Source: Clostridia bacterium (GTDB taxonomy: Bacteria; Bacillota; Clostridia; Oscillospirales; CAG-272). From it: a DNA stretch of 64,000 nucleotides. The notes under the pieces were generated by a model that saw nothing but the letters and a program-made list of their open reading frames with translations, searched no databases and was not told the origin of the DNA. Numbering within the stretch: position 1 is the stretch's first letter; each line of letters starts with the position of its first letter. Location of the stretch: positions 1 through 64,000 of the forward strand of contig JAFUOH010000010.1 of the NCBI GenBank assembly GCA_017482055.1. Reading direction: 5' to 3'. Position numbers and translations under genes: made by a program. Positions 36,273 through 52,800 of this stretch are shown piece by piece.

Positions 36273-38000
36273 ATGGAGCGCATCTACAAAGCATACGATG
36301 AAACCGGCAAGGAGTACGTATTCGAGGTCAACAGGCAAGGCGGGAGCCTGTTTTTAACCCTTAAAAAAGAGCTTTTTGAGGGCGCTAAGCAGCTGCGAGC
36401 GCTAAGGGACCTCTCCGAGACCAAGGCAGGGCAAGACGGCTATTACCTCATTCCCAGAAATATCGGTATGATGGGCGATATGCAGATCATGTTCACAAAG
36501 CGTGCCGACGAAACCTATCTTCACGACAGACCTATCATGTCGATGTACGCTTTGAAGCTGGAAAATTACTGCGCGCTTATTCGCATCGAGCGCAACTACA
36601 AGTACGCATTCGAGATATCCGTAAAAGACGGCTGCTACTCGGTCTGCGTCTGCTTCGACTTTGAGGATGTAAAGAAGGATCCCGTCTACGACGATATACG
36701 CATCGAGATCGTTGAGCTGCCTCTTTCGGCAAAGCTCGGCGACTTCGCAAGGACCGAGCGTGGCATTCGACTCGAACGCGGCGAGCTCCGCACGCTGCGT
36801 GAAAAATGCGAAGAGCCCGCAGTCGAATATGCAAGGAAGTATCCGCTCATCCGCATCCGCTTGGGCTGGAAGCCCAGTCCGTCGCCCGTACTTCACCAAA
36901 ACCTCGAAAACGAGCCCGATATGTTTGTCGCTTGCTCCTTTGAGCGCGTTCGCAGCATTGCCGACGAGCTGAAGCGACAGGGCGTGGAGGGCGCAGAGCT
37001 TCAGCTGGTAGGCTGGAACCGAAGCGGTCACGACGGGCGCTTCCCGCAGCTTTTTCCCGCCGACCCGCGTCTCGGCGGCAATGAGGGGCTGAAAAAGACT
37101 ATAGAGCATGTAAAGAATCTCGGTTACCGCATCTCGCTTCATACCAACCTGATCGACTCTTACGAGATCGCAAACACCTTTACATGGGACGATGTCTGCG
37201 TGAAGAAAGACGGAGAGTACGATCAAACGGGTCATTTCGGCGGCGGCTACTCGTACCATGTCTGCCCCAAAAGGCAGCTGAAAAACAATCGGCGTGACCT
37301 GCCCGACGTCGCCAAGCTCGGCACGAACGGTGTTCACTTTACCGACGTCATATCCATCGTCGAGCCCGATTCCTGCCACGCGAAGGAGCACGTCAGCTAC
37401 ACCAAGGATAGCATTGAAGCGGTACAGACGATCGTGCGGGAGTCCCGCGAGCTGATGGGCGCATTTTCCTCGGAGGGCACGATGGACTTTACGCTGAAAT
37501 ATCTCGATTACGGTCTGTATATTTCATTCGGCGACGGCTTCGGAAAGAAGTATATACCCTTCGGCGAGCGCTGTATTCCGTTCTTTGAGCTGACTTATCA
37601 CGGAATACTGCTCTACAACCCGATCAGCCCTACGGTAAACTATCCGATCAAGACTGCTCGCGACAAGCTTATTTACCTTCTGCGCGGCGGCAGACCCACC
37701 TTCTACATCTACTCGAAATTCCGCACGGGCGGTAAAGCTAACTGGATGGGTGAAATTGATCTGACAACGGAGACCGACGAAGCAATGCGCGAAACCGCAG
37801 GTTTCATTGCGGACAGCGCAAGGGAGTATCTCTCGCGCGCCGACAAGCAGCTTGTCTATATGGAAAACTATGAGATATACGAAAACGGTGTGGAGGTCGT
37901 GACCTACGAGGACGGCAGCCGCGTCGCAGGTAATTTTTCCGAGCGCCCCGCCGTCTACGACGGACACACCATACCGGCAGGCGAAGCGCTCATTCTTTGA
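36273..38000 (+). CDS. DUF5696-like putative TIM-barrel glycosidase
   Basis: From the ATG at 36273 this is 575 residues. Residues 1-200 look like a beta-sandwich domain. A TIM-barrel-like region follows (about 205-480): RIRLGWKPSPSP, VEGAELQLVGWNRSGHDGRFPQ, YRISLHTNLIDSYE, GVHFTDVISIVEPDSC, MGAFSSEGTMDF. The tail is strand-rich. It resembles the DUF5696 type of uncharacterised carbohydrate-active protein; the acidic residues in FTDVI and SSEGT are where barrel hydrolases keep catalytic acids, but this is inference. No signal peptide. It is divergent from an AraC regulator. Confidence 0.6.
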   Translation: MERIYKAYDETGKEYVFEVNRQGGSLFLTLKKELFEGAKQLRALRDLSETKAGQDGYYLIPRNIGMMGDMQIMFTKRADETYLHDRPIMSMYALKLENYCALIRIERNYKYAFEISVKDGCYSVCVCFDFEDVKKDPVYDDIRIEIVELPLSAKLGDFARTERGIRLERGELRTLREKCEEPAVEYARKYPLIRIRLGWKPSPSPVLHQNLENEPDMFVACSFERVRSIADELKRQGVEGAELQLVGWNRSGHDGRFPQLFPADPRLGGNEGLKKTIEHVKNLGYRISLHTNLIDSYEIANTFTWDDVCVKKDGEYDQTGHFGGGYSYHVCPKRQLKNNRRDLPDVAKLGTNGVHFTDVISIVEPDSCHAKEHVSYTKDSIEAVQTIVRESRELMGAFSSEGTMDFTLKYLDYGLYISFGDGFGKKYIPFGERCIPFFELTYHGILLYNPISPTVNYPIKTARDKLIYLLRGGRPTFYIYSKFRTGGKANWMGEIDLTTETDEAMRETAGFIADSAREYLSRADKQLVYMENYEIYENGVEVVTYEDGSRVAGNFSERPAVYDGHTIPAGEALIL

Positions 38001-38060
38001 ATATAAAGGCTTTCATTTGCGAAAAAAGGTAATAAAATAAAAGTTGGGGTACCCCGGCTT

Positions 38061-38543
38061 TTATTTTATGTAAAAACAGGCTGCCGCAGTTCTTGTTTTC
38101 CCGGAAGGAAGCGAAGCGATATTCGTAAAGTCAGTATTTAGTTTATCTATATTTAGTTGTGCGGCGTTTTCCGTATACGGTTTATCCATATACGGGTTTT
38201 CCGTATGTGGTGAATCCGTATCGGGTAAGTCCCTATCAGGTGACGGTAAATGCGGCTCCTCGTAGATTATGTACTCCACATCGCACATTCGTCCGCGCTC
38301 ATCTCTTCGCCGTTTCCGCACAAGGTATCCGCACACTTCAAGCTCCTTTAACTGCGCCGTGATGCTGTCAACACCGTCCTTGCAGATACTCGCAAGACCG
38401 CGCGTGGTGTAGTCCCAATCATCGGGCAGGGACAGCATGGTGGACAAAAGTCCGCGAGCTTTATTTGAGAGATTCCGATCCCGTAGGTGGAAGTTCGACA
38501 TCGTGGTGTAGTTCTTGTTCCTTTCTATTCTGCACACTGCCAT
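38061..38543 (-). pseudogene. Truncated RepA-like protein of the second ICE
   Basis: From the ATG at 38543 (AGGAG seven bases upstream) the 160 residues match the N-terminal half of the ICE1 protein at 7633-8553: YTTMSNFHLRDRNLSNKARGLLS, LPDDWDYTTRGLASICKDGVDSI. They include a shorter 5-residue-repeat linker (DTDSP HTENP YMDKP YTENA). The DUF6017 half is gone; after LNIDKLNTDFTN the sequence is unrelated and stops. The winged-helix domain itself is intact, so DNA binding might survive. The break joins it to the inserted AraC/DUF5696 cargo. Confidence 0.82.
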
Positions 38544-38612
38544 ATTGGTTCTCCTATTCTCATTTGGGTACAAAAAAGCCGGAGTAAACTCCGACGTCGT
38601 GTGCGTGTTATG

Positions 38613-39339
38613 TTACAAGTGATTGTCCCGCTGTCGCTTGCGCATCCATCCCTCAAGCAGCTTGATTATGGTTTCCTCCATTCGCTGTGGGGAGTAGGAT
38701 TTTGGGAAGTATTTGCGTATCTTATCCATCGGGAGCGACAGGTTCCAGCTTTCGGGCTTGTTCGCTGTCGATGGTATCGAGGAGCAGGGTTTGTTCGGTG
38801 GGTGTTAGAAAGGCCAGCTCAACAGCGGGCGTTATACCGATCTTGCCTTCGTCAACCATTTGTTGTAGCTGTGGTTGTAGTTCGGTTAAGCGGATGTAGC
38901 GCTGTACCGTTCGTGCGCTCTCCTCAGTTTCAGATGCGACTTTTATATCTGCTCTTAACTTCGTGCCAACTTGCCTCTTTATAGCTTCCATCTTCATTTT
39001 ATACGCCTTCGCCCGTTCGCTTGGGAGTATATTCTCACGCTGAAGGTTGCTATCCACCATCAGTATAGTTGCCGCATCTCGGTCGAGTTCTCGCACGATT
39101 ACCGGCATGGTTGTAAGTCCCGCAAGCTCACAGGCTCGCTTTCGTCGGTGTCCGGATATGAGCTCGAATGTGCCGTTATCCAACGGTCGGGCGATAGCGG
39201 GGACGATAACGCCGTATTCATTTACGCTTTCGACAGTCTGCGTCATTGCTTCATCCTCGCGCACGGCGTATGGGTGATCTTTGAATGGGACGAGTTTATA
39301 AAGCTCGATGTGAGTTATGGTTTCGGCGAGATTTGGCAT
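38613..39339 (-). pseudogene. ParB-family protein of the second ICE, frameshifted
   Basis: Codons from the ATG at 39339 encode a ParB/Spo0J-type protein: IELYKLVPFKDHPYAVRED, IARPLDNGTFELISGHRRKRACELAG, LMVDSNLQRENILPSERAKAYKMK and a helix-turn-helix (SARTVQRYIRLTEL). The frame stops at 38722 after LEPVAPDG. The family C-terminus is found in the next frame (IRKYFPKSYSPQRMEETIIKLLEGW), ending at the TAA at 38613-38615. About 30-40 residues are missing at the junction. A shortened ParB of 205 residues could still bind DNA. In intact ICEs this gene begins the operon that continues with repA. Confidence 0.85.
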
Positions 39340-39416
39340 GGTGGTACCTCCTTTGGGATTATAAAAGGAGTTGTTGCATTAAGTGCATAATGTGCATAAG
39401 AACTCGATATGAACCT

Positions 39417-39508
39417 GTAGGGGCGATTCACAGCAGCCTTCGTCTGCTTCGCCCGTCCGAACGGTAAAATCATACCGAATGGACGGGCGCATCGTGATGC
39501 GCCCCTAC
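39417..39508. repeat. MITE-like element with GTAGGGGCG ends
   Basis: A 92-bp unit begins GTAGGGGCG and ends CGCCCCTAC. It holds inner inverted pairs such as CCCGTCC / GGACGGG and GCGCATC / GATGCGC. No coding sequence is present. This end sequence is typical of short non-autonomous repeats in Firmicutes and Cyanobacteria. Confidence 0.65.
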
Positions 39509-39656
39509 GAGTTTACGGTGTTATACACAATATACGTTTAGTGCAACAGCCGCTTTTGAGCGGTAATTATATTCGGTAAAAGATAAAAATTTCAACCATT
39601 TCAAGGTATCAAGATGCCATAATGATAGCTGCCATATGTACATTCTCGCTAATTCC

Positions 39657-39675
39657 TTGCTAATAATTTGCTAAT
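39657..39675 (+). repeat. Paired TTGCTAAT direct repeats, right end of the second ICE
   Basis: TTGCTAAT occurs at 39657 and 39668, eleven bases apart, exactly as at 9047 and 9058. A weaker GCTAATT lies at 39649. This marks the integrase-arm region of the second element. No copy of the tRNA-Arg 3' half follows within the next 300 bases. Confidence 0.65.
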
Positions 39676-39862
39676 TTGAGCCTCAAAAACGCTCCGAAAT
39701 CAGCCGTTATCGCACAACACGCAGCAACACATAAAACCGTGAAAAGTCCAGCAGTTATGCGGACTTTTGGCACTATACGAACACAGCGCACACAATTTGG
39801 TTGCTGGTCGCCAATAAATTGTATCCCGACCGGACAAGGCACGAAGTTTGTACTTATTTAAC
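39676..39862. other. Non-coding stretch beyond the second ICE arms
   Basis: This lies between the TTGCTAAT arms and a hairpin. Sixty-codon frames are open on both strands but have no ribosome site, and neither has a recognisable product. An attachment core would be expected here by analogy with ICE1, but no tRNA-like block is visible. Confidence 0.4.
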
Positions 39863-39894
39863 ATCAGCCGCACCTGTTCGCAGGTGCGGCTGAT
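39863..39894. repeat. Perfect 14-bp hairpin with TTCG loop
   Basis: ATCAGCCGCACCTG and CAGGTGCGGCTGAT enclose TTCG. There is no T-run on either strand. It lies 55 bases beyond the stop of the solute-binding protein gene (39949) and may act as its transcript end. Confidence 0.7.
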
Positions 39895-39948
39895 ACAGTA
39901 AAAGCAACATCTGAGGAGAAAAGGATATTGCTCTGATTTCCGATACCA

Positions 39949-41433
39949 TTACTGCCTGTTGTCCCGGTCATTCTCGATAAGCTCGCCCAACTTGCCCTTC
40001 GCCGCAAGCTCGTAGGACGCGTACAGCGAGGAGAAGTTGTTCTGACCGCTATTGCCTATCTGCTGGAATATCTTGCCGATGCCGTCAAGGCTGTTCATGA
40101 AGAGAAAATCCGTGCGGGCGCCGGTGGTGATGAGGTCGATGATCGCCGCCTCGGTGTCAACATCATCGCCTCGAGTGAACTTTAATTTAAGCGCGGTCTC
40201 ATAGTATGCGGGTGTAACGGTCATATAGCCTTCATACGCCATAGACTCGGCGACGGCGGAGATCATGTCATAGTCGGCGACAGTTACGGGCACCGCTCCC
40301 CACTGTACCAGACTCTCAACCACAGAGTGGTAGCCGTCGATGCTCTCGTCATACTTCGGCATGGGAATAATACCGTAGTCGTCGGTCATCTCACGGAGCG
40401 CGCTCCAGTCGCAGATGTAGAGACGGTTCGCGAGGAACAGCGCCTTACCATCGGTGAAGTGAGTTACTTGATCGTTGTTGACGCTTGTTTTGAACACATG
40501 CTCACCGGTGAGAAGCTCAAGCAGCTTGTCGGCAAGCTCCACCGTGCGCTCGTTGTTTAAATTGAGCACGGGATAGCCGTCCTCATCGCGGGAGGTAAAT
40601 TCAAGACCCGCGCTGTATGCCATCCAGTTGTAGGTTTCGCCTGAGAAGCTGATCATACCGTGGATATCCTCGGCGTCGTTTACACTGTTGCCGTTGTCCT
40701 CGTAGACCGTGGACGCCAGCTCATACATCTTTTCGATAGTCCAATCACCGTCGAGGACGATCTGATAGAGGTCGTCGTCACTCATACCGTGGCGCTCCTC
40801 CAAAATGCGCTTATTGAAATACACGGCGCAGGTGCGCTGAACGGTGTTGAAAGTGATATCGCCGAACAAAATGTACGGGTTATCGGAGTTTACCGATACC
40901 GATTCGATGTATTCCTTGTTCCACCAGGGATTGTCGAGATTTACGTAGGTAAGATCGGAGATCGGCGTGTACAGTCCCTCCTGCATGAGAACCACCTGCT
41001 GGCTCGCCACGGTGAACACCATATCATAATCGTTGGAGCCCGCATTGACCGACTGACGTACCAGCCCGGGAATGTTCGCGAACTTTGTTTCCTCAATAAA
41101 GTTGATGGTCACACCGAGGCGCTCCTCAACTGCGCGGCGGCGGTAATAATTGGCTTCCTGCACCACATCAGCCTGAGCCTGTACCGCATTTTCCCCATCG
41201 TTTAAGGTATGAGGACCGCTGATGATGTACTCCATGTTAAGAATATTGACCTCATCGCCGCCATAGTTGAGATCGGGCAAACCATCGGAAAGCTCAGTTT
41301 CGGAAGCCGCCTGTGTACCCGTGGTCACAGGCTCGGTGTCGGTGTCCGCGGGAGTATCATTGCAGCCCACAGCGAGTGTCATAACGGTAAGCAGCACAAG
41401 AAGCAATGCAGTAAAACGATATCTTTTCTTCAT
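39949..41433 (-). CDS. Extracellular solute-binding lipoprotein (family 1)
   Basis: This 494-residue sugar-binding protein has a lipoprotein signal (lipobox AVGC, Cys24), an acidic Thr-rich linker, and the two-lobed binding fold. Landmarks are NYYRRRAVEERLGVTINF, WWNKEYIESVSV, YFNKRILEERHGMSDDDLYQIV and LADKLLELLTGEHVF. It would deliver an oligosaccharide to an ABC permease, but no permease or ATPase gene is in the window. It is related to the lipoprotein at 25468-26913. The divergently encoded AraC-type regulator at 41903 is the likely controller. Confidence 0.92.
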   Translation of the reverse strand: MKKRYRFTALLLVLLTVMTLAVGCNDTPADTDTEPVTTGTQAASETELSDGLPDLNYGGDEVNILNMEYIISGPHTLNDGENAVQAQADVVQEANYYRRRAVEERLGVTINFIEETKFANIPGLVRQSVNAGSNDYDMVFTVASQQVVLMQEGLYTPISDLTYVNLDNPWWNKEYIESVSVNSDNPYILFGDITFNTVQRTCAVYFNKRILEERHGMSDDDLYQIVLDGDWTIEKMYELASTVYEDNGNSVNDAEDIHGMISFSGETYNWMAYSAGLEFTSRDEDGYPVLNLNNERTVELADKLLELLTGEHVFKTSVNNDQVTHFTDGKALFLANRLYICDWSALREMTDDYGIIPMPKYDESIDGYHSVVESLVQWGAVPVTVADYDMISAVAESMAYEGYMTVTPAYYETALKLKFTRGDDVDTEAAIIDLITTGARTDFLFMNSLDGIGKIFQQIGNSGQNNFSSLYASYELAAKGKLGELIENDRDNRQ

Positions 41434-41448
41434 AATAGTTCCCCTTTC

Positions 41449-41761
41449 TTAATTTAAAAGCGTTACAAGTTCACAAATCTCAAAGCGCGTATACTTTATA
41501 TCGCGGTATTTGCCTATCTCGGGCCCCGATTCCCATGCACAGAGGAGCATTCCGTCACCGATTGTGCAGAGCGCCGCATCCGGGAGCCTCGTCCGCCCGG
41601 GATGTGTACTTCATTCCAAAGGAGTAAACAATGGTACCGTCATTAAGCTCGTGAAAATTCGGTCCGCGTACGCATAACGGGACAAACGGCTCGGACATTT
41701 GACCGTACATGCCAAGCGCAGTCGATTTGACGCCGTTTTTGGTAATGCACTCGAAATTCAT
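41449..41761 (-). pseudogene. Frameshifted fragment of an unknown protein
   Basis: An ATG frame from 41761 (MNFECITKNGVKSTALGMYGQ to FGMKYTSRADEAPG) breaks at about 41570. The adjacent frame continues DAALCTIGDGMLLCAWESGPEIGKY and ends at a TAA at 41449. It gives about 100 residues in total, perhaps the end of a sugar-binding or glycosidase beta domain. It is 15 bp upstream of the lipoprotein gene in the same direction. I do not recognise the parent family. Confidence 0.55.
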
Positions 41762-41902
41762 GGTGATCCTCCCTTTTATTTTTACGAATACAGCAAAATG
41801 TTTACAATTTTATTGTATCATATTTTATCTGTTTGTGATAGTATATAGCTACGTAAAAATAGGAAATTTCACCGATTAGCCGAAAATAATGAGGTAGATT
41901 TT

Positions 41903-43339
41903 ATGCATAACAGCTACGATAATCAGCCTGTTTACGATGCCGTACAGTGCACACTCAACAAATATCACCCCTGCCCCACTCTGCTTCTTGACCCGGGGCA
42001 CTGCTTTTTCATAAAACGCATCGAATTTTACAAAAACATGGAGGACGCGGAGAATGCCCGCGACGGCACCGTTATTGACCTGTCCTCCCGCAAGGCGGCG
42101 GAGCGTACTCTGCGCCTTGACACCGACAACGCCGACGGTCTGTTCGGAAAATACGAGTTCGACGCCGCCGAGCGGGCACTGTCCCTAAAGCGCTCGGAAT
42201 CCTCGGGAAAATGGGCAGACTACGGCAGCCGCGTTAAATTTTCCATAAGAATGAAAACAGCCTCCGTACTCGGTGACGACAGCTCCTACATGGTGGTCAC
42301 CTACAAGACGAACATCAGCGGAAAGCCCGACAAAATTCGACTGCTTCTTGAAAATTATTGGGGAAATTACATTATCTTAGACCCGGATGTGTCCGTATCC
42401 TGTGGCAGGTACGTCAGGAGCAAGCCCATCAACATCCGTCAGTTCGACCTCCCAAAGCAGGATTTTTTCGAACGTCTGCGCCATCCGCGCTACTTAAATT
42501 CCGACTACACGGATGCCGATCTTATCTATATCGCTCCCTCCGACGAGTCGGGCACGCAGACTCACCGGCACATCGAGATGCTGTACATCGCCGACGGCGT
42601 CGCCAACGTTCATATACACTCAACACATTATATGATGCAGCGCGGAGATATGGTCATCGTGCCGCCCATGTGCGCACACAACGTAGCGTCCAAGGCGACG
42701 GGATCAACGCTGTATTCCATCATGCTTATGCCCGAGCAGTTGTACATACACGACATGCCGTTATCAACAATGCGGTACTACCTGGCAATATGGCAGAGGC
42801 ACCTGCGTCACAATCCTTTCATCGGTGCAGAAGAGCTTCACGAGTACGGACTCGATAAGCTGATAGTTGAGCTTATTAACCTTCTTCAGTCGCACACCTT
42901 CGCCCATCAAATCAAGATCCATGCCAAGCTGATGAGCATATTCGCAATCCTGCTCGACCGCTGTTCTTCAGAGGAAACGGACAGCGATCGCCCTGCCACG
43001 CTTATAACGCAGTTCGAGGCGGCGATAGACGAGGCGAAGAAAAGCCTGCACAGCTTCACCACCGCCGATGCCGCGAAAGCCTGCAATCTGTCGTACAACT
43101 ATTTCTGCGCGGGCTTCAAGAAGGCGTACGGAATGGCGTTTTCGGCGTATCTCGACTCAATGCGTCTGCATGAGTCCGAGCGCCTTTTGCTCACCACCGA
43201 GATGAGCGTCACCGATATCGCAATGTCGATAGGCTTCTCCGACACCAGTCACTACATAAAGAAATTCAAGCTTGCCTACAATTTAACACCGCGTCAGTTC
43301 CGCGACCGCATGCGAAACGCAGCTGAGGAATTCGTATGA
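41903..43339 (+). CDS. AraC-family regulator with a long N-terminal domain
   Basis: This 478-residue protein has a C-terminal AraC DNA-binding domain (about 370-470; FTTADAAKACNLSYNYFCAGFKKAYG and VTDIAMSIGFSDTSHYIKKFKLAYNLTPRQFR). A cupin-like domain precedes it (about 215-290; TQTHRHIEMLYIADG, MQRGDMVIVPPMCAHNV). The first 200 residues are an extra beta-rich domain (CFFIKRIEFYKNMEDAENARDG, LLLENYWGNYIIL) that resembles a carbohydrate-binding sandwich. That is unusual for a cytoplasmic regulator and may sense a sugar. It is divergent from the lipoprotein gene at 39949. Confidence 0.88.
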   Translation: MHNSYDNQPVYDAVQCTLNKYHPCPTLLLDPGHCFFIKRIEFYKNMEDAENARDGTVIDLSSRKAAERTLRLDTDNADGLFGKYEFDAAERALSLKRSESSGKWADYGSRVKFSIRMKTASVLGDDSSYMVVTYKTNISGKPDKIRLLLENYWGNYIILDPDVSVSCGRYVRSKPINIRQFDLPKQDFFERLRHPRYLNSDYTDADLIYIAPSDESGTQTHRHIEMLYIADGVANVHIHSTHYMMQRGDMVIVPPMCAHNVASKATGSTLYSIMLMPEQLYIHDMPLSTMRYYLAIWQRHLRHNPFIGAEELHEYGLDKLIVELINLLQSHTFAHQIKIHAKLMSIFAILLDRCSSEETDSDRPATLITQFEAAIDEAKKSLHSFTTADAAKACNLSYNYFCAGFKKAYGMAFSAYLDSMRLHESERLLLTTEMSVTDIAMSIGFSDTSHYIKKFKLAYNLTPRQFRDRMRNAAEEFV

Positions 43340-43414
43340 TTTCTTTGCCGTTATGGATGAAAGCTATTCGAAGATACCGAAAAAAGAGCGATCGCAATAT
43401 AAAGCGTGCTGTTT

Positions 43415-43651
43415 TCATTTTCCCTCAACGAACCATCTGTCCTCGTCGCGGAACAAATACCGCTCCTGCCCTTCTACCCGCACGGTATAGCGTAAACCGC
43501 AGCCGCCTACCTTTGTGGAAGCGGCGCGGATCTGCATCATGACTGCGGTAATCTCAAAAACGCTCCCATCTCTCCATATGATCGAGCGCGGACGCACCTC
43601 ACCCTCGGGCGAAAAGTCCGCGTTTACCTTTACATATACCTTTTGTGCCAT
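43415..43651 (-). CDS. Small conserved partner of the Y-family polymerase
   Basis: From the ATG at 43651 (AAAGGAG seven bases upstream) this is 78 residues. It is strand-rich, with MAQKVYVKVNADFSPEGEVRPR, IIWRDGSVFEI, GCGLRYTVRVEGQERYLF and DRWFVEG. It lies 13 bp downstream of the polymerase gene and is surely co-transcribed. Small proteins of this kind are often found next to UmuC/DinB genes in Clostridia, but no function is known to me. The fold looks like a small beta barrel. Confidence 0.75.
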   Translation of the reverse strand: MAQKVYVKVNADFSPEGEVRPRSIIWRDGSVFEITAVMMQIRAASTKVGGCGLRYTVRVEGQERYLFRDEDRWFVEGK

Positions 43652-43664
43652 TTTTGTTCTCCTT

Positions 43665-44906
43665 TCACGCAAGTGTTAACAGCCCCGTAGGCATGGTAAG
43701 TTCAAACTCCGCGCCGCCGGGGAATTTTTCAAGCTTCATCGTTGACGCCGAGGTTATGGCACTTCTGCCGAATCTGCGGCGTATCTCATCCACGGCGCGG
43801 TCCTTCGCTTCCACCTTTGCGATACGTCCCGCGTCGCGAAATATCGTCAGCTGCTCGCAGATGTCCTCATCGTCAAGCCGTATGGCTCGCACGGTCATCG
43901 CACGTATGGGCTTTACCCACGGATAGTTTTTCGTGAACAGCTCAAACGCACGACATGCAAGCTCATATGCGTTCTGTGTCGGGTGCTCCGTGCCGCACTG
44001 CCATTCCTTCCATGCAAGGTCGTTGCATTTGACAGTCAGCGACACACCGTGCGCCTTCTTTTTCGCCGCTCGGAGCCTTGATGCCACCTCGTCTGCAAGC
44101 GTCAGTATCATACACCACACCTCGGAATTACAGGTGAGATCGGACGTAAACGTTGTACCGCGGCCGATGGACTTTATCGGAAACTCAAAGTCACGATGTA
44201 CCACTGCCGAGTTGTCCTCACCGTTGGCGAACTGCTTCATGCGAAGCCCGTTTATACCGAATTTGTATGACAGCATCTCGTCGGGACAGTGCGCAAGGTC
44301 TCCGATGGTGTTGACACCGTATCGGTGCAGCTCACGTATCGCCGACCGTCCCACGCCGAGCATATCATCGGCGGGAAGTCCCCACACCTTTTCCTTGAAA
44401 TTATCGCGGGAGATGACCGTTACCGCATCGGGCTTTTTCATGTCACTGCCGAGCTTTGCGAATATCTTGTTGAATGACACGCCCACAGATACGGTCAGCC
44501 CAAGCTCAAACTTGACGCGCTCGCGTATCTCGTTGGCGATCTTCTCCCCGTCGCCGAACACCATGCGAGAGCCCGTGACATCAAGCCAATTCTCATCCAT
44601 GCCATAGGCTTCGACCTGATCACTGTAGTCACAGTAGATCGCCCGTACAAGACGGGAATATTTCATATACTCATTGTAATGCGGATCTACGGTGACAAGG
44701 TCGGGACATTTACATTTTGCCTGAAATATCGTCTCGCCCGTTTTAACGCCAAACGCCTTCGCAGCGTAGTTTTTCGCAAGCACTATCCCGTGGCGCTCCT
44801 CCACCCTGCCGCACACCGCGACGGGGTATTTTTTTAATTCGGGGTTCATCATGCATTCTACCGATGCATAAAAGTTGTTGAGGTCGCTGTGGAGTATGGT
44901 ACGCAT
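43665..44906 (-). CDS. Y-family DNA polymerase (DinB/UmuC type)
   Basis: This translesion polymerase of 413 residues starts at the ATG at 44906. Motif I ILHSDLNNFYASVE has the metal-binding Asp8. The second catalytic pair is in YGMDENWLDVT (usual form SIDEAFLD). VSVGVSFNKIFAKLGSDMKKPD, WGLPADDMLGVGRSAIREL and the little-finger domain follow. It lacks a clear C-terminal beta-clamp box that I can point to. Transcription runs from a consensus promoter that overlaps the divergent promoter of an XRE repressor gene. Together with the ImmA/IrrE protease and the SRAP protein it forms a damage-tolerance cassette. Longer starts (44966) run into the promoter and are rejected. Confidence 0.93.
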   Translation of the reverse strand: MRTILHSDLNNFYASVECMMNPELKKYPVAVCGRVEERHGIVLAKNYAAKAFGVKTGETIFQAKCKCPDLVTVDPHYNEYMKYSRLVRAIYCDYSDQVEAYGMDENWLDVTGSRMVFGDGEKIANEIRERVKFELGLTVSVGVSFNKIFAKLGSDMKKPDAVTVISRDNFKEKVWGLPADDMLGVGRSAIRELHRYGVNTIGDLAHCPDEMLSYKFGINGLRMKQFANGEDNSAVVHRDFEFPIKSIGRGTTFTSDLTCNSEVWCMILTLADEVASRLRAAKKKAHGVSLTVKCNDLAWKEWQCGTEHPTQNAYELACRAFELFTKNYPWVKPIRAMTVRAIRLDDEDICEQLTIFRDAGRIAKVEAKDRAVDEIRRRFGRSAITSASTMKLEKFPGGAEFELTMPTGLLTLA

Positions 44907-44924
44907 AATTTTTTTCCTACCCTC

Positions 44925-44953
44925 TTGACAAACGATGTGTTGTGTGGTACAAT
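44925..44953 (+). promoter_or_regulatory. Consensus sigma-A promoter for the XRE-ImmA-SRAP operon
   Basis: TTGACA (44925-44930) and TACAAT (44948-44953) are 17 bases apart on the plus strand. The transcript would have a leader of about 110 bases. Confidence 0.8.
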
Positions 44954-44966
44954 ATATACACAGCAT

Positions 44967-44979
44967 ATTGTGTCACAAT
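44967..44979. promoter_or_regulatory. Operator-like dyad ATTGTGTCACAAT
   Basis: This perfect dyad (ATTGTG-T-CACAAT) lies between the two divergent -10 boxes. The flanks are also symmetric: ATATATACACA on the left mirrors TGTGTATATTAT on the right. It is the most likely binding site of the XRE repressor. Confidence 0.65.
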
Positions 44980-44990
44980 CCGGTGTGTAT

Positions 44991-45019
44991 ATTATAGCAC
45001 ATTGTTTTGTGTTTGTCAA
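44991..45019 (-). promoter_or_regulatory. Perfect consensus sigma-A promoter for the polymerase gene
   Basis: On the minus strand TTGACA (45014-45019) and TATAAT (44991-44996) are 17 bases apart. An unregulated promoter this strong would be odd for an error-prone polymerase, so repression is expected. Confidence 0.85.
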
Positions 45020-45028
45020 TACATATTC

Positions 45029-45044
45029 GCACAATTTATTGTGC
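45029..45044. promoter_or_regulatory. Second operator-like dyad GCACAAT-TT-ATTGTGC
   Basis: This repeats the CACAAT/ATTGTG half-sites of the dyad at 44967 with a different spacing. It lies just upstream of the polymerase -35 box, between the promoters and the XRE start codon. A looser half-site pair (GCACATTGTTTTGTG) lies at about 44997-45011. Confidence 0.6.
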
Positions 45045-45070
45045 CAATTTTATGAAATGGGGTATCGACT

Positions 45071-45493
45071 ATGTCATTTTCGGATAAACTAAAGGCAGCA
45101 CGCGCCGCGGCAGGACTCAGTCAGCATGAGCTTGCCGAGCGCGCGGGCATACATTACCGCACCGTGCAGAATTGGGAGAGCGGCGGCAGACTTCCCCGCA
45201 GTCTTGATTCGGTCATGCGCGCGGCGCAGGTTCTCGGCACCACATCGGAGGCGCTTCTCACCGAAACAGATCAGTACATCGTCGAAGCCGCACAAAAGGG
45301 CGGCGCGGCGGCGGCGCGGGATGTTGACTCGCTGGTGAACGAGGTAATCGGACTTTTCGCGGGCGGCGACATCGACGAGGACGAAAAGGACGGCATAATG
45401 GCGGCGTTAAATGAAGCGTACTGGATAGCCAAGCAGAAGAACGCCAAGTACACGCCGAAAAAATACCGCAAAAACAGAGGTGACGGTGAATAA
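45071..45493 (+). CDS. XRE-family repressor
   Basis: This 140-residue protein has an N-terminal Cro/CI-type helix-turn-helix (residues 5-62; LKAARAAAGLSQHELAERAGIHYRTVQNWESGGR). A Gly/Ala-rich linker (KGGAAAARD) and a C-terminal helical and basic region follow. Repressors encoded directly before an ImmA/IrrE protease are typically cleaved or destabilised by it, as with ImmR-ImmA of ICEBs1 and DdrO-IrrE of Deinococcus. The linker is a plausible cleavage region (inference). It probably represses both its own operon and the divergent polymerase gene through the CACAAT dyads. The ImmA start is two bases after its stop. Confidence 0.9.
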   Translation: MSFSDKLKAARAAAGLSQHELAERAGIHYRTVQNWESGGRLPRSLDSVMRAAQVLGTTSEALLTETDQYIVEAAQKGGAAAARDVDSLVNEVIGLFAGGDIDEDEKDGIMAALNEAYWIAKQKNAKYTPKKYRKNRGDGE

Positions 45494-45495
45494 TT

Positions 45496-46005
45496 ATGTT
45501 CACTAACGAAACGATAACGAAAAATGTCCGTGAGTTACTGAAAAAGTACGACACACGCGACCCGTTTCGTATCGCCGCAAGGCTCGGCATTGAGGTGTTG
45601 TACACCGACACGCTGAGCAGGCTAAAGGGCATGTACAGAGTCATCAAGCGCAACCGTTTCATCATCTTAAATAACAAAAACTCCCCGAAGATGAACCGTA
45701 TCGTCTGCGCACACGAGTTGGGGCATGACCGCCTCCACCGCGAATATGCCACGGATAGGACACTTAAGGAGTTTATGTTATACGATATGTCAACGCGTCA
45801 GGAGTATGAAGCCAATGTGTTCGCGGCGGCGCTGCTTCTTGATGACGAAACGGTTCTCGAATACATTGAGCAAGGGCTTGACACCGAGCAGATAGCCTTG
45901 GCAACCGAAACGGACATCAATCTCGTCGCGCTGAAGGTTGACTGCCTCATACGCGACGGTCATCACCTGCGTATGCAGGGACACAATTCAAAGTTTTTAA
46001 AGTAG
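45496..46005 (+). CDS. ImmA/IrrE-family metallopeptidase
   Basis: This 169-residue protein has the zinc protease motif HELGH (73-77, in CAHELGHDRLHRE). The third-ligand region is RQEYEANVFAAALLLDD, with Glu105 as the probable ligand. The family cleaves or inactivates partner XRE repressors in response to DNA damage or other stress. It lacks the C-terminal GAF-like domain of Deinococcus IrrE and so is closer to ImmA. It is co-transcribed with the repressor upstream and the SRAP gene 13 bp downstream. Activation signal unknown. Confidence 0.93.
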   Translation: MFTNETITKNVRELLKKYDTRDPFRIAARLGIEVLYTDTLSRLKGMYRVIKRNRFIILNNKNSPKMNRIVCAHELGHDRLHREYATDRTLKEFMLYDMSTRQEYEANVFAAALLLDDETVLEYIEQGLDTEQIALATETDINLVALKVDCLIRDGHHLRMQGHNSKFLK

Positions 46006-46018
46006 GGGGCACAACAAG

Positions 46019-46597
46019 ATGTGCGGACGATACACGGGCTATGTGGATGACTGCGACGAGCTCAAAACCATATACACGGCGGCAAGATCGGCGTATCCCG
46101 AGACCGAGTTTGCCGCGGGGGAGATATTCCCGACCAACACCGTGCCGCTTCTCACAAGCGTGGGTGGTGAACTGCGCCCGTTCGCAGCGACGTGGGGCTT
46201 TCCCGGCTTCAAGGGGAAGCAGCTCATCATCAATGCCCGTGCGGAAAGCGCTGTCTTTAAGCCTACCTTTGCCGAGAGCTTCCGCCGACGTCGTTGCATC
46301 GTTCCGACCACCGGCTACTTCGAGTGGGCACACACAGACGATAAGACGAAATATCACATTCGAAGCGCCGGGCGTGACATTCTGTACCTCGGCGGGCTGT
46401 GGTGCCGATACGAGGACGGTGTACGCTTCGTGATACTCACCACCGCCGCCAACACATCCGTCGCCCACGTGCATCACCGAATGCCGCTGGTGCTTTCCGA
46501 GGATATGCTCATCAGGTGGAGCAGTGACGCGGAATTTGCGGCGCGTTACGCCATGTCGGCTATGCCCGCGATGGTGTGCTCGCAGATATCGGGCTGA
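46019..46597 (+). CDS. SRAP-domain protein (YedK/HMCES-like)
   Basis: This 192-residue protein begins MCGRYT, so Cys2 becomes the catalytic N-terminal cysteine after methionine removal. Other active-site elements are NARAES (72-77), PTTGYFEW with Glu102, and HHRMP (152-156). SRAP proteins form a covalent thiazolidine link with abasic sites in single-stranded DNA and protect them from cleavage. As the last gene of the XRE-ImmA operon, it places abasic-site shielding under the same control as the translesion polymerase. Cytoplasmic. Confidence 0.94.
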   Translation: MCGRYTGYVDDCDELKTIYTAARSAYPETEFAAGEIFPTNTVPLLTSVGGELRPFAATWGFPGFKGKQLIINARAESAVFKPTFAESFRRRRCIVPTTGYFEWAHTDDKTKYHIRSAGRDILYLGGLWCRYEDGVRFVILTTAANTSVAHVHHRMPLVLSEDMLIRWSSDAEFAARYAMSAMPAMVCSQISG

Positions 46598-46788
46598 CGA
46601 TACGTCACCCCCAAGCTGCCGCTGTTTAATATTCCACATCGCCCCCATAACGGTACTTTATCATAGCATATGTAAGGATAACGGCGGCGCGGTTTTAACA
46701 GAAGCAGGCAGGCACTTCATAATCTCACCGAGGGCAATATGAATATAGCCGAGCGTAAATCCGCTGTCCTCTGAATCCCAATACACAC

Positions 46789-46832
46789 AAAAATATTCCT
46801 GCCTCACGAAAGTGAGGCAGGAATATTTTTTA
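46789..46832. terminator. Strong bidirectional terminator
   Basis: AAAATATTCCTGCCTCAC pairs with GTGAGGCAGGAATATTTT around GAAA. The plus strand ends in TTTTTT and the minus strand in TTTTTGTG. It serves the convergent SRAP operon and the giant surface-protein gene. I see no gene in 46598-46788. Confidence 0.93.
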
Positions 46833-46843
46833 TGAGCGATCGA

Positions 46844-49800
46844 TCAATCGACCTTTGCGTAGTTAAGGAGCATCTGTGCGGCTTCGGCACGACTTGCTTC
46901 ACCCTTCGGGTTGAGCATGCCTGCTCCGTTGCCGTTGATGACGCCCTTCATATTGCACCAGCTTACCGCCTCGACTGCCCACATAGACAGGCTGTCAAGA
47001 TCCGGGAACTTGAGCTGATACATCCACATTCCGGTGAAGCCGCCGCCCTTGTGCTGCTCGTAACGGTAGAGCATCGTCGCAAGCTGCTCGCGGGTGATGG
47101 CATCGTCGGGACCGAAGGTCTCTGCGTTGTAGCCTTCAACGATACCCGTGGATGCCGCCCAGCGGACCGCCTCGGTGTACCATGTGCCCGATTCAACATC
47201 CGTGAAGGTCATCATGTAATTGACGAAGGGCTTACCCTCCAGTCTCCAGAGGATGGTGACTATCATGGAGCGTGTAACGGTGCCGCTCGGATCGAACGTA
47301 TTCTGAGAAATACCGTTCATAAGATCGTTTTCGATAGCATAATGTACCGCATCGTGATACCATTCATCGTACTTAAGGTCGGTGAATGGCTTCATGGGGC
47401 AGGTAGCCTCGGTACAGTCGGAGATCACCGTATCGGGCTTATCGACTACGGGAACATCGACCTTTGCCTTCTCGAATACCGCCTCGATAGTGTGCGCTGC
47501 AGTCACTCTTCTGAAGGTATATTCGTCAAGAGCGCCCACGCTATCGCCGTCAACTATGACATCCTTGATAACATACCCCTCATCAGCACTGATGGTAAAG
47601 GTGATGCTGTCGCCTCTGTCAACTCTTACTCTGCCCTCGGGGTCGATCTCACCGCCTTCGGAGGCGGAAGCCTTGATAAGGTAGGTCACACTCGAAGATC
47701 CGCCGCCCGAACCGCTTCCGGAACCGGAGCCCGTACCACTGCCGGTGGTGGACTTCTTATAGTAGCCCACTGCGAAAGGCGAGAGACTTGTTACGGTAAA
47801 CTCGATACCGCTCGTTTTCTCGGTATGGTCAACAACCTCGGTGTCGCCCACACGGTTGCCGTCCATATTGCTTGTGAACATATGGATGACGGTATAGGTG
47901 TAAGTTCTGTCCGCATCCGAATCGATATCGTCATAATCAATAGCGACTTCAAAGCCTTCTGCGGGGAAATGATCCTTGTCGGCATTCTTCCATGTCGTAC
48001 CGCCGTCGGTGGTGTACTGCAGAGTGATGTCGAAGTATGCCACATCCTTGAAGTTCTTGCTCTCATCGGTGACTGCGTCCTCAAGGTCTGCCTTGAGCGC
48101 CTTGAGTGTCGCATACTTGTCATCAAGCTCTGCGGGAACCTCGGTGAGGTCGTCTACGACCACGCGGAACTGCAGGGACTCGGCAACAAGCTCAATAGCC
48201 TCGGAGATATCTTCAATGGTCACAGTGTAGCTTCCGTCGGAGTTCTTGACCGCGGAAATGCCGTTGCTCTCTTCGCTAAGGCAGTCAACGCCGTTTACGA
48301 TGAGCTTTGTCATGGTGCAGTCCTTGGCGGGAGACACCTTGAAGCTGATATCACCGCCCTTGCGTATTTCGCCTGCGGGAGAGGTGTCGGCAGGAGTACG
48401 CACGATCTCACTTACGGTGTATCCCTCGCCGCTCTCGGGAAGCGAGAAGCCCTCGTATTTTTCAAATGTCAGCACAACATGAGTCTTTTCGGTGAGCTTA
48501 TCGATGGTGAACACATTCGCCACAGTATCCTGCTTAATGTTGTTCACTGTCCAGGATGCGACCATATCTGCGTTATTATCGCCGTTCATTGCGGGGCTTG
48601 CGGTAAATACAACAGTGCTGTTGCCGACAAGGCGAACCGAAGCGTCAGCTGTGGGATATATCTCGGTGCCGCCGGAGGTAACTGTCGCAGTGGAAGTATT
48701 TCCTGTCTCGCATACCACGGCGAATGTTAAGTCATAACGTACCGCAGGCTTGAAGCTTGCCTCAACGGTCATGTCCTTCTTGATATCGTTAAGTGTGAGA
48801 GTGGTGCCTCCGGTTTCATCCGCTTCGCCGTCTACCGTCCAACAATCGAACTGGTAGTAAGCATCGGGAGTCGCGGTGAGCGTTACGCTTCCGTTTCTCG
48901 AAACGATGACGGAGGTGTCGCTGACCTTACCGTTGTCGCCCGCAGTAACGGTTACCGTATACTTGGGGCATTCGATGATCTCGACTGTGATGTTGATCTC
49001 ACCCGTAACGGTGGTGGTGTAGGTGAGCGCCGCATCTGCGGTGTCGGACATCTCATAGCCGCTCGGAGTGATGCCGTCAATTGTCCACTTGTTTACCATA
49101 TTGGTGCCGCTTGGCTTAACGGTAACTGTAAGCTCGGCGTTGTGCGGGACCTTATCGCCGCTCTTGACGGTCTCACCGTCTGCGGTCGCCGTAATGGTAC
49201 CCTTGCTGCCTGTAGTCACAAAGGTCACGGTGTAGGTATCCGCCTCGAATACTGCCTCAACCTCGTAATCCTCGCTCATGGTAAGAGTTAGAATCTCCGA
49301 GGTCTCAGCCGCGGTCTTGCCGTTTACCTTCCACCCCTTAAATGTGTAGCCTGTATCGGCTGCTGCGGTAATGGTAACAGTCTCGTCCTTGGTTACATAG
49401 GTACCGCTCGCCGTCTCGCTTGTAAGCTTACCGCCGACGGTATCGGTGTAGGTCACAACAAAGCTGCTGCGAACAAGTACTGCTTTAACTGTGAAGGTAT
49501 CTGTGGGATCATCTGCCGCCAGACCGTTTTCAACAGTCCAATTGAAGGTGTTGCCGCTGACATTTTGGCTGACACCGTTTACAGTCCAATCGGAGACTGC
49601 CCAACCGATGTCGGGTGTTGCCGTAAAGGTGAGAGACTCACCTCCGCGTGCCTTACCGCCGGTAAGAGTTGCGGTCTCGATCTTGCCGTTTGTTATCTCG
49701 GTTTCAATTGTGTAAAGTGTCTGACGGAACTTGACGATGATCACGGTCTCGTCATCACCCTTTACCTTATAGGTGTACTTTGTCTCGCCCTCGGTGCCAT

Positions 49801-52800
49801 CCACAAGCACGTCGTCGTTGTACCAGCCCTCGACCTCGTAGCCGGGCTTGACGGTGGCTGTGAGCTCAAGGTCAACGCCCTCCTCCAGATGTCCTCCGGT
49901 AAGCACATCGACACCTGCCGCAGCAGCCTCGGAGACATAACCGCCCGTGCTTTCCTCATCGATGGGCTCGATAACGATGCCGTCGCCGCGCTGTACGAAT
50001 CTAGCGGTGACCGTAATGTCGCCCTGAATGTTGTGAAGCAGCTCTTCGGGGATGGACATAGCCTTGCCGGTATTACCGTTTATGTTCCATTCAAGGTACT
50101 GTATACGGTAGCCATCCTCGGGAGTTACGTTTATCGTAATGTCGGAGTCGCGATAGAATTCGCCGCTTTGGGTGATCTCTTCATCGTAATCGTCCAGCGA
50201 CTTGCGGGTAACGGCTGCGGAAATGCTTCCGTGTGAGCCGTTATCATCAATTTTTTCGGTTGCGAGAGTGAGCGTATACTGAGGGATCGCCTTCGCGGTG
50301 ACGCCTATTACGACGTTCGCTGTGACGGGATCCTCCACGGTGTAAACGGTGATGTCGTTTTCGGTAAGGTCATCGTTTTCGGGAGCTGCCTCGGTCTGGT
50401 CGAGAATCCACTTATCGGTCTCATAACCCATATCCGGTGTCGCCGTAAATACGATATTCTCGCTGTACTTTTCGATGTGGTCGCCGCTTGTAAGCTCGTC
50501 GCCGTCAAGCTCTGCGGTAACGGTGATGTTTTCGTCGCCCGCAAAGGTCACGATAGGCTTTTCGGCGTAGGTGACAGTTATCTCGGTGTCCTTTGTGACG
50601 TTTTCCACGTCAAAAGTCATTTCCTCGCCCGTGTACTCGTCCGCATTATCGGTGTAAACGGCTGTACCGTTCACCTTGACCTCGCTTACATAGTAATTTT
50701 CATCGGGAGCTGCTGTGATGACGATATCACTGCCAAGATCCACATGCTTTGCCTCATCTTCACCGACAACAACATCGATGTCATCGGCATCCTTGTTGAT
50801 ACCGTCCACTGTTGTGGTACCGTTATCGTCGGCAGCCACGCTGACCTCGGGCTTTTCGGCGATGGTGACCACCACGCTTGTGTTTTCGTTCAGAGAAGCC
50901 AGATTTGCGCTCTGACCATCCTCATCGGGAGTTACGTTTTCGCTCCACTCATCCACATAATAGTCGGAATTAAGCGAAAGCTCAAATTCTACGGGGATAT
51001 ACGCGCCGTAGCTGCCGCCGTTATCAAGGCCCACGCCGTTTCCGTATGCGAGAAGCTTCGCAATATCGGAATCGTCAACAGTCTCGCCATTAAGCACAAC
51101 GGAGTAGTTAAGCGTATAGCTCTGCGCACTTGTCACAATCACACGCACGTCGGTGTCAGCGTCCAAATTGTACAGAGTAAAGCTGTCTTTGCCGCCCGAA
51201 CCGCTGACAGTGGTAAAGGTAACGCCGTCAGTGGAGGTCTGCCATTCCTTAACGGTGTTGTTGGTAGCGTTAAGGCTTGCTGTGAAGGTAACGGAGGTGT
51301 GCTTGGAGATACCCTCGAGGCTTGCAAGCTGCTCGCCGCTCTCCGCATCCACCGCGGAAATCGTCGCAAGCTCTGCTGCAGGATTGCCTGCCTCGCTGTA
51401 TACGGAGGTGGTGATGTCGTATTCCGCACCCGCCGTAAAGGATACGACCACGGTATAGTTTGACGTAATATCTTCAAGAGTCAGAGTTTCGCCGCGATAT
51501 ACTGTGCCGTCCTCCCAGGTATAGGTCTCATTGTTGACGATCCAGCTATCAACAACATAGTTTGCATCCGGCTTGGCGGTGATAACGATATTAGCGCCGT
51601 TCGCAACCGATGTGCCGCTGGCAATATCCGTATCGCTGTCATTTACCGCCGAAATGTTACCGCCCGCACCATTTACGCTGTAGGTGATGGCGTTGGAGGC
51701 AGATTTGAAGGCAACTCTTACTTCAAGCGCACCGTCTTTGATCTGTTCACTGCCTTCGGAAGCATCGAAGCTGTCAATAACGAGCGAATCGCCGTCAAAT
51801 TCGAACCAATCGGGGTGTTCCGCACCGGCTCTGTCGTATTCGACATCATTGATTATCCACTTATCAACCGCATAACCTGTATTAGGTTCAGCGTTAAATG
51901 TAAGCAGTATGCCGCTTGTACGGCTTGATCCGGATTCCATCAGGAACAAATTCTCGCCCGAACGTCCTACCAACGAGCCGTTTTCGCCACTCTCAAAGTA
52001 TACGGGAGCACTGCTGGGCTTGATGGTAAAGGCGCCGCTCTTAAGCGTTGCATGGAAGTTATTCTTGAACTCGTCTGCCTCGGTGCTGTTCTTGTAGCTG
52101 AGTGTTACTGTAAAGACACCCGAGGAAGAATTGTTGGTAAAGTACGGACAGCTGATATTGAAAATAGTCTTAAGATATTCGTCCGTGTGTCTTCCGAAAG
52201 TACTTGTAAGGGTTATATCATCTGTACTCACGGGAGTTACATTCCATGTGGGAGCAATAGTTATAGAGAGACGAGTAACTTCAAGCGATGCAGATGCTAT
52301 AACATTTGTCGCATCCAGCGATGAGCCCTTGTACACTCTCACAATATAAACACCTGCCGCATCGGGTGTATAGCCTGCGCCGTCAACTTTAGTCTCCGAT
52401 TTGCCGGGAGCTGTTACGGTGTATGTAAAGGTTTCGTCCGGCTGCGGAGCGTAATCGTTCCATCCCGAGCTGCCGACTTCGCGGCTCTGGAGCTCATAGC
52501 TGAAGGTTTCACCGAAAGGCATCATACCCACGAGTGCCTTGCCGTCCGAGGTGAGAAGCACTCTGTACTCGGTGGTATTAACGCCTGTTTCAGTACCAAG
52601 CGCATCGTAATACTTAGTTTCGCTGACAGAACCAAGGTACTTTCCACTTCCGCTCACCACTACCTCGATACGGTAAAGGTCTGCGTTGGGAGCGTGCCAT
52701 GTCACGCTTGCTTCACCGGTGCTGTTTGTAACAGCCTTCAACTCATCTACTGCGCCCGTAACCGTATTTATCATACGGAAAGCAACATCGGATGAAGAAA

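Follow-up and report, generated by a model that had tools for sequence, protein, structure and literature searches.

An XRE repressor and M78 protease facing dinB in Clostridia: a probable ImmR/ImmA-type switch wired to translesion synthesis

Operons that pair an XRE-family repressor with an M78 (ImmA/IrrE) metallopeptidase have been described in several bacterial settings. ImmR/ImmA modules are XRE-M78 operons, often found on mobile elements, in which the protease relieves the repressor and whose activity responds to DNA damage (PMC10233336; this and the papers below are cited for the sections that were available). The Deinococcus repressor DdrO is cut at L106-R107 (PMC7907104), while PprI is activated by single-stranded DNA, and CapP/CapH behaves alike (PMC10904395). 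The Deinococcus translesion cassette is controlled by RecA/LexA rather than by IrrE/DdrO, and its induction persists when irrE is missing (PMC8072749). Partners of Y-family polymerases that have been discussed include ImuB-C and SRAP-like proteins (PMC12926913), and neighborhoods of DinB, SRAP, standalone ImuB-C, and a DUF955 (M78) metallopeptidase are already known from the available sections of PMC3765255. Here we describe a five-gene cassette in a 64,000-nucleotide stretch of a Clostridia bacterium genome (assembly GCA_017482055.1, contig JAFUOH010000010.1, positions 1 to 64,000; "the window"), in which an XRE-M78 pair stands opposite dinB, and we consider it probable that the cassette is a switch of the ImmR/ImmA type with translesion synthesis as its output. 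New here are the face-to-face sigma-70 promoters and the locus-specific operator repeats. The layout is not described in the parts of PMC12288472 and PMC1978522 that were covered, and a joint XRE/M78-dinB-SRAP switch was not found in the open-access literature (subscription papers, figures, and supplements lay outside the search). The five genes are as follows.

43665-44906, minus strand: dinB, Y-family DNA polymerase IV, 413 aa (Pfam IMS, 2.7e-43; IMS_C, 2.1e-17)
43415-43651, minus strand: small dinB partner, 78 aa from its ATG (no Pfam match)
45071-45493, plus strand: XRE repressor, 140 aa (HTH_3, 2.8e-11)
45496-46005, plus strand: M78 (ImmA/IrrE) metallopeptidase, 169 aa (Peptidase_M78, 1.9e-17; HELGH present)
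46019-46597, plus strand: SRAP (YedK/HMCES-type) abasic-site protein, 192 aa (PF02586, 1.2e-34)

An earlier note on this DNA had placed five genes at these coordinates and in these families, with the polymerase and its small partner divergent from an XRE-M78-SRAP operon and a HELGH motif in the metallopeptidase; all of this held when positions were rechecked and Pfam matches obtained. The end of the partner frame at 43672 in the open reading frame list corresponds to an upstream TTG start. Because the intergenic gaps are so short (2 nt between XRE and M78, 13 nt between M78 and SRAP, and 13 nt between dinB and its partner), we read the genes as two operons pointing away from a 164-bp region. 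Within the plus-strand operon the XRE gene is followed directly by the M78 gene, as in ImmR/ImmA-type switches.

The conserved core of this layout is XRE-M78 facing dinB, an arrangement that recurs across many genera and several families. The family set comprised 54 loci, namely, the window and 53 fetched loci that together represent every M78 match of the family search, while the order, class, and viral sets were limited to best-scoring matches; order loci were read with 1.5-kb flanks, and class-locus layouts were counted by eye. M78 relatives were present in 47 of 196 family genomes (27 of 71 genera), and dinB was found in 159 of the 196. In 21 of the 54 family loci dinB is divergent from M78, and an XRE was scored between them in 20. 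The family loci without a divergent dinB had the small gene alone (3/54), a contig end (9/54), or neither gene (21/54). A same-strand XRE was scored upstream of M78 in 43/54 family loci and in 27/27 order loci. The order search matched 55 of 245 genomes, and among its best 27 loci dinB was divergent in 16 and the small gene in 3. Similarly, the class search matched 43 of 245 genomes; 12 of its best 28 loci had a divergent dinB, one of them (L272) in pieces, and two further loci had dinB behind M78 on the same strand. The best 82 viral loci, which lie on 81 contigs and include several near-copies, had dinB opposite in 5 cases and the small gene in 12.

Some loci showed other arrangements. At L043 (906-2809), M78 and dinB stand back to back 165 bp apart without an XRE gene between them. 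A second, distant Y-family polymerase of 502 aa, 25 to 28% identical to the window DinB, is encoded downstream of XRE-M78 at L040 (7677-9182), L041 (7718-9223), and L046 (3116-4621), loci that are without a divergent cassette dinB. At L078, L079, and L080, XRE-M78 is followed, in place of repair genes, by the small gene and a gene for a ~215-aa protein (with a weak VWA match in L080). Behind the small gene, a second, larger M78-like protein is encoded at L041 (3426-4414), L044 (3806-4797), L042 (3116-4209), and L055 (3421-4420), with a Pfam match in L041 and L042 and none for the L055 protein; this two-protease layout is often accompanied by a small zinc-ribbon-like protein.

The region between the two operons of the window contains a pair of predicted promoters and several operator-like sites.

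44925..44953, plus strand: predicted promoter P+ for the XRE operon, TTGACA-17-TACAAT (from the sequence and the promoter comparison)
44991..45019, minus strand: predicted promoter P- for dinB, TTGACA-17-TATAAT, facing P+
44959..44972: operator-like site CACAGCATATTGTG at the predicted start of P+ (genome-wide pattern search; operator test)
44974..44987: operator-like site, minus strand CACACCGGATTGTG, at the predicted start of P- (pattern search)
44998..45011: operator-like site CACATTGTTTTGTG inside the P- spacer (pattern search; operator test)
45030..45043: operator-like site CACAATTTATTGTG, the center of the dyad GCACAATTTATTGTGC, upstream of P- (pattern search; operator test)

We asked how general these features are among 92 loci (the window, L035-L080, L097-L102, L104-L130, and 12 of the 82 viral loci, which were chosen since most had a divergent neighbor; L081-L087, L103, and the other 70 viral loci were left out). 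A divergent dinB or small gene was in range in 57 of them, and 56 of these 57 intergenic regions had a near-consensus sigma-70 promoter on each strand, compared with 100 of 1,140 mononucleotide-shuffled regions. P+ and P- face each other, such that the predicted transcripts overlap by 10 to 25 bp in 51 of the 56 loci and by 40 to 63 bp in 5; the overlap in the window is 23 bp. We then compared segments within loci, using 42 of the 56 loci after removal of those with near-identical XREs. The P+ spacer, the segment between the two -10 boxes, the P- spacer, and the 40 bp beyond the -35 box of P- were more similar to each other within a locus than between permuted loci: 0 of 5,000 permutations and, four times, 0 of 3,000 were as similar over these four positions. 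A control segment, the 40 bp on the dinB side of P+, was matched in similarity to the P- spacer by 531 of 3,000 permutations. The operator-like sequence itself varies among loci, from CACGAA-type to CACA-N5-TTGTG (the window), ACTTCC-type, and others. Since the operator differs by locus, its regulator should differ by locus as well, and the XRE encoded in each cassette would be the simplest candidate for reading the repeats. Their likeness within a locus fits a cognate XRE controlling both arms, and the predicted joint repression of both arms by the XRE is well supported by these sequence comparisons. The conserved layout, together with the promoter and operator tests, also rules out that the genes are merely chance neighbors.

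The window genome is a 1.56-Mb assembly in 26 contigs that is 54% complete, and because of this low completeness absences from it mean little. In the whole assembly, the window operator pattern has 18 strand-matches and a backwards control pattern has 5. Five of the 18 fall within the 85 bp at 44959-45043. A further match, at 46010-46023 on the minus strand, overlaps the SRAP start codon and may be due to chance or represent an internal site. When promoter boxes and operator pattern were searched together, the incomplete assembly yielded one other exact match, at C26:278067, and two further sites with one mismatch. The promoter at C26:278067-278095 (L225 1493-1521) has a near-identical operator in its spacer (AACACAACGGAATGTGC, compared with AACACAAAACAATGTGC in the cassette) and precedes a 36-aa open reading frame; a phage-integrase gene lies ~0.9 kb away, and the region also encodes a T5orf172 protein. 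This promoter is a possible second target of the cassette XRE.

The cassette proteins were compared part by part with relatives and solved structures. The window DinB carries HSDLNNFYAS and GMDENWLD, which we take to be the active Y-family catalytic motifs of Pol IV (DinB), and QLTIF, presumably a clamp-type motif. In the M78 protein, H73, E74, H77, and E103 (HEXXH plus a third, acidic zinc ligand) are invariant in 24 of 24 aligned relatives. Its nearest solved relatives are CapP (7t5t, 3e-7) and IrrE (3dte, 2.1e-6; an IrrE ortholog, 4.1e-5), and the best PADLOC models were capP for M78 (2.1e-15) and capH for the XRE (2.4e-9). The XRE profile matched 72 solved sequences, including 9sf2, a 129-aa regulator (3e-11, with most of it aligned), and two DNA-binding domains, those of the ICEBs1 Xre regulator (7t8i, 1e-10) and of DdrO (6rnz, 2.4e-6 to 4.1e-6), the last scoring below several generic repressors. 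In the C-terminal part of the XRE, A97-G98-G99 is invariant in 29 of 29 aligned XREs and G98-G99 in 24 of 24 members of a second set, made up of the window and viral proteins. The SRAP protein matched YedK structures at 1.3e-12 to 2.3e-12. The window SRAP protein has an MCGR start and the motifs INARAE, GYFEW, and HHRMP, containing the Cys2, Asn, Glu, and His active-site residues used by YedK (PMC9436759, available sections); among 15 SRAP proteins, these motifs were present in 15, 14, 13, and 14, respectively.

The small partner is probably a standalone ImuB-C-like protein, judging from a weak DUF6504 match of one family member, a conserved C-terminal Trp, and the dinB/Ku/ligase context of a plasmid copy. 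A 14-member alignment has 16 invariant columns, including W74 and F75 (numbering of a 79-residue stretch). DUF6504, which we take to be ImuB-C-like, matched 1 of the 14 members weakly (E = 0.02) and 0 of 11 in a second set. On a plasmid, a 51% identical copy follows dinB in the vicinity of genes for Ku and DNA ligase, a type of context reported for ImuB-C (PMC3765255, available sections). For the small protein, a PDB profile search gave no credible match and PHROGs gave none, and the Deinococcus deserti ImuB-C was not found in the fetched stretches of plasmid 1.

SRAP was present in 31 of the 196 family genomes. Seven of 54 family loci have it immediately after M78 (the window, L037, L047, L049, L051, L053, and L076, from 6 genomes and 5 genera), and five of these seven have a divergent dinB; the L076 contig starts inside M78. 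At L047 (5029-6220), an XRE gene shortened at its 5' end abuts a ParB-like open reading frame and is followed by M78 and SRAP. No SRAP was found in the 27 order loci or the 82 viral loci, all of them best-scoring matches. All five families were present in 2 of the 28 class loci (G484 and G581, one genus), where dinB faces an XRE-M78-ImuBC-SRAP operon, with the ImuB-C-like gene between M78 and SRAP. By hand count from coordinates, a dinB is located no more than 5 kb away from at least 14 of the 33 SRAP genes in the family, and several of these dinB-near SRAP genes are without M78 (L088-L094, chosen for that). In an M78 tree of 48 rows, 6 of them with SRAP (L076 being too short), the SRAP label requires two changes; the SRAP tree is poorly resolved and compatible with one origin. 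A scan of genome contigs for SRAP returned three distant proteobacterial loci. The earlier note had proposed that polymerase and SRAP occupy the two arms of one XRE/protease switch, and had named missing co-occurrence of the families in related genomes as a refutation. The first idea draws support from the layout, its conservation, and operator repeats over both promoters, and the core co-occurs in family, order, and class loci; a minority of loci show the strict layout with SRAP.

Several observations weigh against an ImmR/ImmA-type switch dedicated to translesion synthesis. The XRE matches to the ImmR and DdrO structures span only the common DNA-binding domain, and P22 c2, 434 repressor, and SinR outscore DdrO in the XRE profile search. 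The protease has 169 aa, compared with 281 to 301 aa for IrrE proteins, and therefore no separate sensor domain is evident. In the operator test, the control segment was weakly positive for the P+ spacer too (46/3,000). A 6-mer repeat test of the window's intergenic region alone gave a P value of 0.055, and many single loci were not significant. The window also has a degenerate site in its P+ spacer, and most loci have no SRAP. Furthermore, the 21 of 54 family loci with neither dinB nor its partner opposite the XRE mean that the switch is not bound to dinB. In phage-like settings and settings like those of integrative and conjugative elements (ICEs), the switch also faces the small gene where no cassette dinB is adjacent, so its primary output may be mobile-element genes.

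Alternatively, a now reduced element might use XRE/M78 as its lysogeny or ICE switch. The genes dinB and SRAP and the ImuB-C-like gene would then be early genes of that element, turned on at excision or transfer and not for host damage tolerance; we give this immunity-module explanation a chance slightly short of even. XRE-M78 stands opposite dinB in two "Ca. Heliusvirales" phages, NatCom_19828 and NatCom_991, and in a 518-kb Monoglobus record that was deposited as a plasmid and is ICE-like by our reading, and the Vescimonas locus has a recombinase gene ~2.6 kb away from its small gene. The named carriers either belong to the Clostridia, like Monoglobus, or are phages of Oscillospiraceae and Acutalibacteraceae. 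The same switch is found opposite the small gene followed by the second M78-like protein, and L041 additionally has weak zinc-ribbon and sigma-like matches and an HTH_17 protein. In the window, HTH_36 and ParB-like genes at 38061-39339, 4 kb from the cassette, are perhaps remains of an element; however, no integrase or relaxase was found among the proteins scanned at 36.2-57 kb. A repeat-flanked inserted element was considered separately and rejected, as no pair of direct repeats in 38000-47500 brackets the cassette. The immunity-module explanation is compatible with a switch for translesion synthesis: the two share one wiring and differ in the beneficiary.

The presence of LexA raises another explanation. 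The window genome has a full-score LexA above the model cutoff and a consensus Gram-positive box, CGAACAACCGTTTG, upstream of lexA, so the term "LexA-free," which the earlier note had used of the cassette, does not apply to the organism. LexA might then induce dinB as in an ordinary SOS operon, with XRE/M78 a mere neighbor that has an unrelated regulon of its own, and 13 of 57 cassette regions (e.g., L036, L041, and L051) are indeed within one mismatch of the LexA box, compared with 15 of 1,140 shuffles. However, the best LexA-box match at the window cassette region has three mismatches, compared with none at lexA itself, and the variation of the operator among loci and its repetition within each fit a locus-encoded regulator better than a single LexA. 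We therefore regard an SOS operon as unlikely; with LexA present and only a three-mismatch box at the cassette, it is the cassette that looks LexA-independent. Many of the near-LexA-box sites in the 13 regions are CACGAAC-type XRE operators, and such overlap would make cross-talk between LexA and XRE possible there. Both class genomes with all five families have LexA. Replacement of LexA by XRE/M78 found no support in a hand tally: LexA was over the cutoff in 11 of the 21 genomes where dinB faces M78 and in 109 of 175 others, no clear deficit. Finally, XRE/M78-type pairs are sometimes annotated as toxin-antitoxin modules (PMC10233336, available sections), in which case the repair genes would be passengers. 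That the pair keeps recurring beside dinB, SRAP, and the ImuB-C-like gene speaks against passengers, and in the same source the Streptococcus mutans protease had a minor effect on growth in E. coli, the overexpressed repressor had a moderate one, and the authors judged the module not to be toxin-antitoxin. We consider the toxin-antitoxin explanation highly improbable.

Beyond the cassette, the SRAP gene converges on a gene at 46844-57040 (minus strand) that encodes a giant surface-layer-anchored protein of 3,398 aa, with InlB B-type repeats, an fn3 domain, and three C-terminal SLH repeats. One feature lies between the two genes:

46789..46830: perfect 19-bp inverted repeat, possibly a terminator shared by the SRAP and giant-protein genes

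Scans of the window for tRNAs and Rfam families gave no matches.

Gene identities, operon layout, conservation, paired promoter-like elements, and locus-specific operator-like repeats, all established at the sequence level, are consistent with the following model of an ImmR/ImmA-type switch that controls translesion synthesis. As long as the cell is undamaged, an XRE dimer would bind several CACA-N5-TTGTG dyads across the two face-to-face promoters, repressing both the XRE operon and, in the opposite direction, dinB with its partner. By analogy with characterized pairs, we infer that a signal, most likely single-stranded DNA or a RecA-linked damage signal, would trigger the M78 protease to cut the XRE in its C-terminal part, probably near L95-F96-A97-G98-G99; the cleavage site of ImmR is F95-M96. 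Loss of XRE dimerization would let both arms fire. In this host, Pol IV and the ImuB-C-like helper would presumably bypass lesions and SRAP would cap abasic sites in single-stranded DNA, until fresh XRE made from the same operon resets the switch.

More broadly, and with greater doubt than confidence, we suggest that such cassettes may constitute a second, LexA-independent damage circuit in LexA-bearing bacteria and some phages and mobile elements, a portable one in which a protease-cut XRE gates mutagenic Pol IV and an ImuB-C-like helper and, in places, an abasic-site shield. Since operators have diversified locus by locus, several copies of the switch could coexist in one cell without cross-talk. 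If this is true, translesion mutagenesis in carriers would be switched by a dedicated protease and not by LexA alone, and the cassette would offer a compact two-protein model of damage sensing by short ImmA-type proteases, a portable mutagenesis module with directly testable inducers, and a link between SRAP and a defined regulator.

The cassette shares the two-gene XRE-M78 operon with ImmR/ImmA of ICEBs1 and TnSmu1. It differs in its output, which is dinB, an ImuB-C-like gene, and in some loci SRAP, whereas ImmR/ImmA controls conjugation genes; its operators also differ by locus, and the window copy is not on an evident element. CapH/CapP of the CBASS antiphage systems likewise pairs an XRE-type repressor with an M78 protease, CapP being activated by single-stranded DNA (PMC10904395 and PMC10233336, available sections), and provides the best PADLOC and PDB matches of the cassette pair. 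The effectors here, however, are repair proteins, and across 10 window proteins PADLOC found no CBASS model and no defense gene beyond the pair and a weak methyltransferase-type ParB-like match. Compared with the neighborhoods of PMC3765255, the difference is the XRE partner, which is not named in the sections available ("HTH" occurs 0 times in the text), although a figure or additional file may show one. LexA-controlled translesion cassettes (lexA-imuY-imuBC-dnaE2 and kin) similarly encode a proteolysis-relieved repressor with their translesion genes; LexA cuts itself, whereas the cassette repressor would be cut by a separate metalloprotease. With DdrO/IrrE (PprI) of Deinococcus, where an XRE repressor and an M78 protease control repair genes, the likeness shows in the profile matches of the protease and the repressor's DNA-binding domain. 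The cassette differs in its short protease, which is without the further C-terminal sequence of IrrE, in the adjacency of its two genes, and in its apparently local targets. DdrO/IrrE has a genome-wide repair regulon sharing a motif; for the cassette, the 54%-complete assembly gave the single further exact promoter-plus-operator match at C26:278067. A LexA-independent circuit of this kind would reverse the Deinococcus arrangement, in which the protease and repressor drive other repair genes and LexA keeps the mutagenic cassette.

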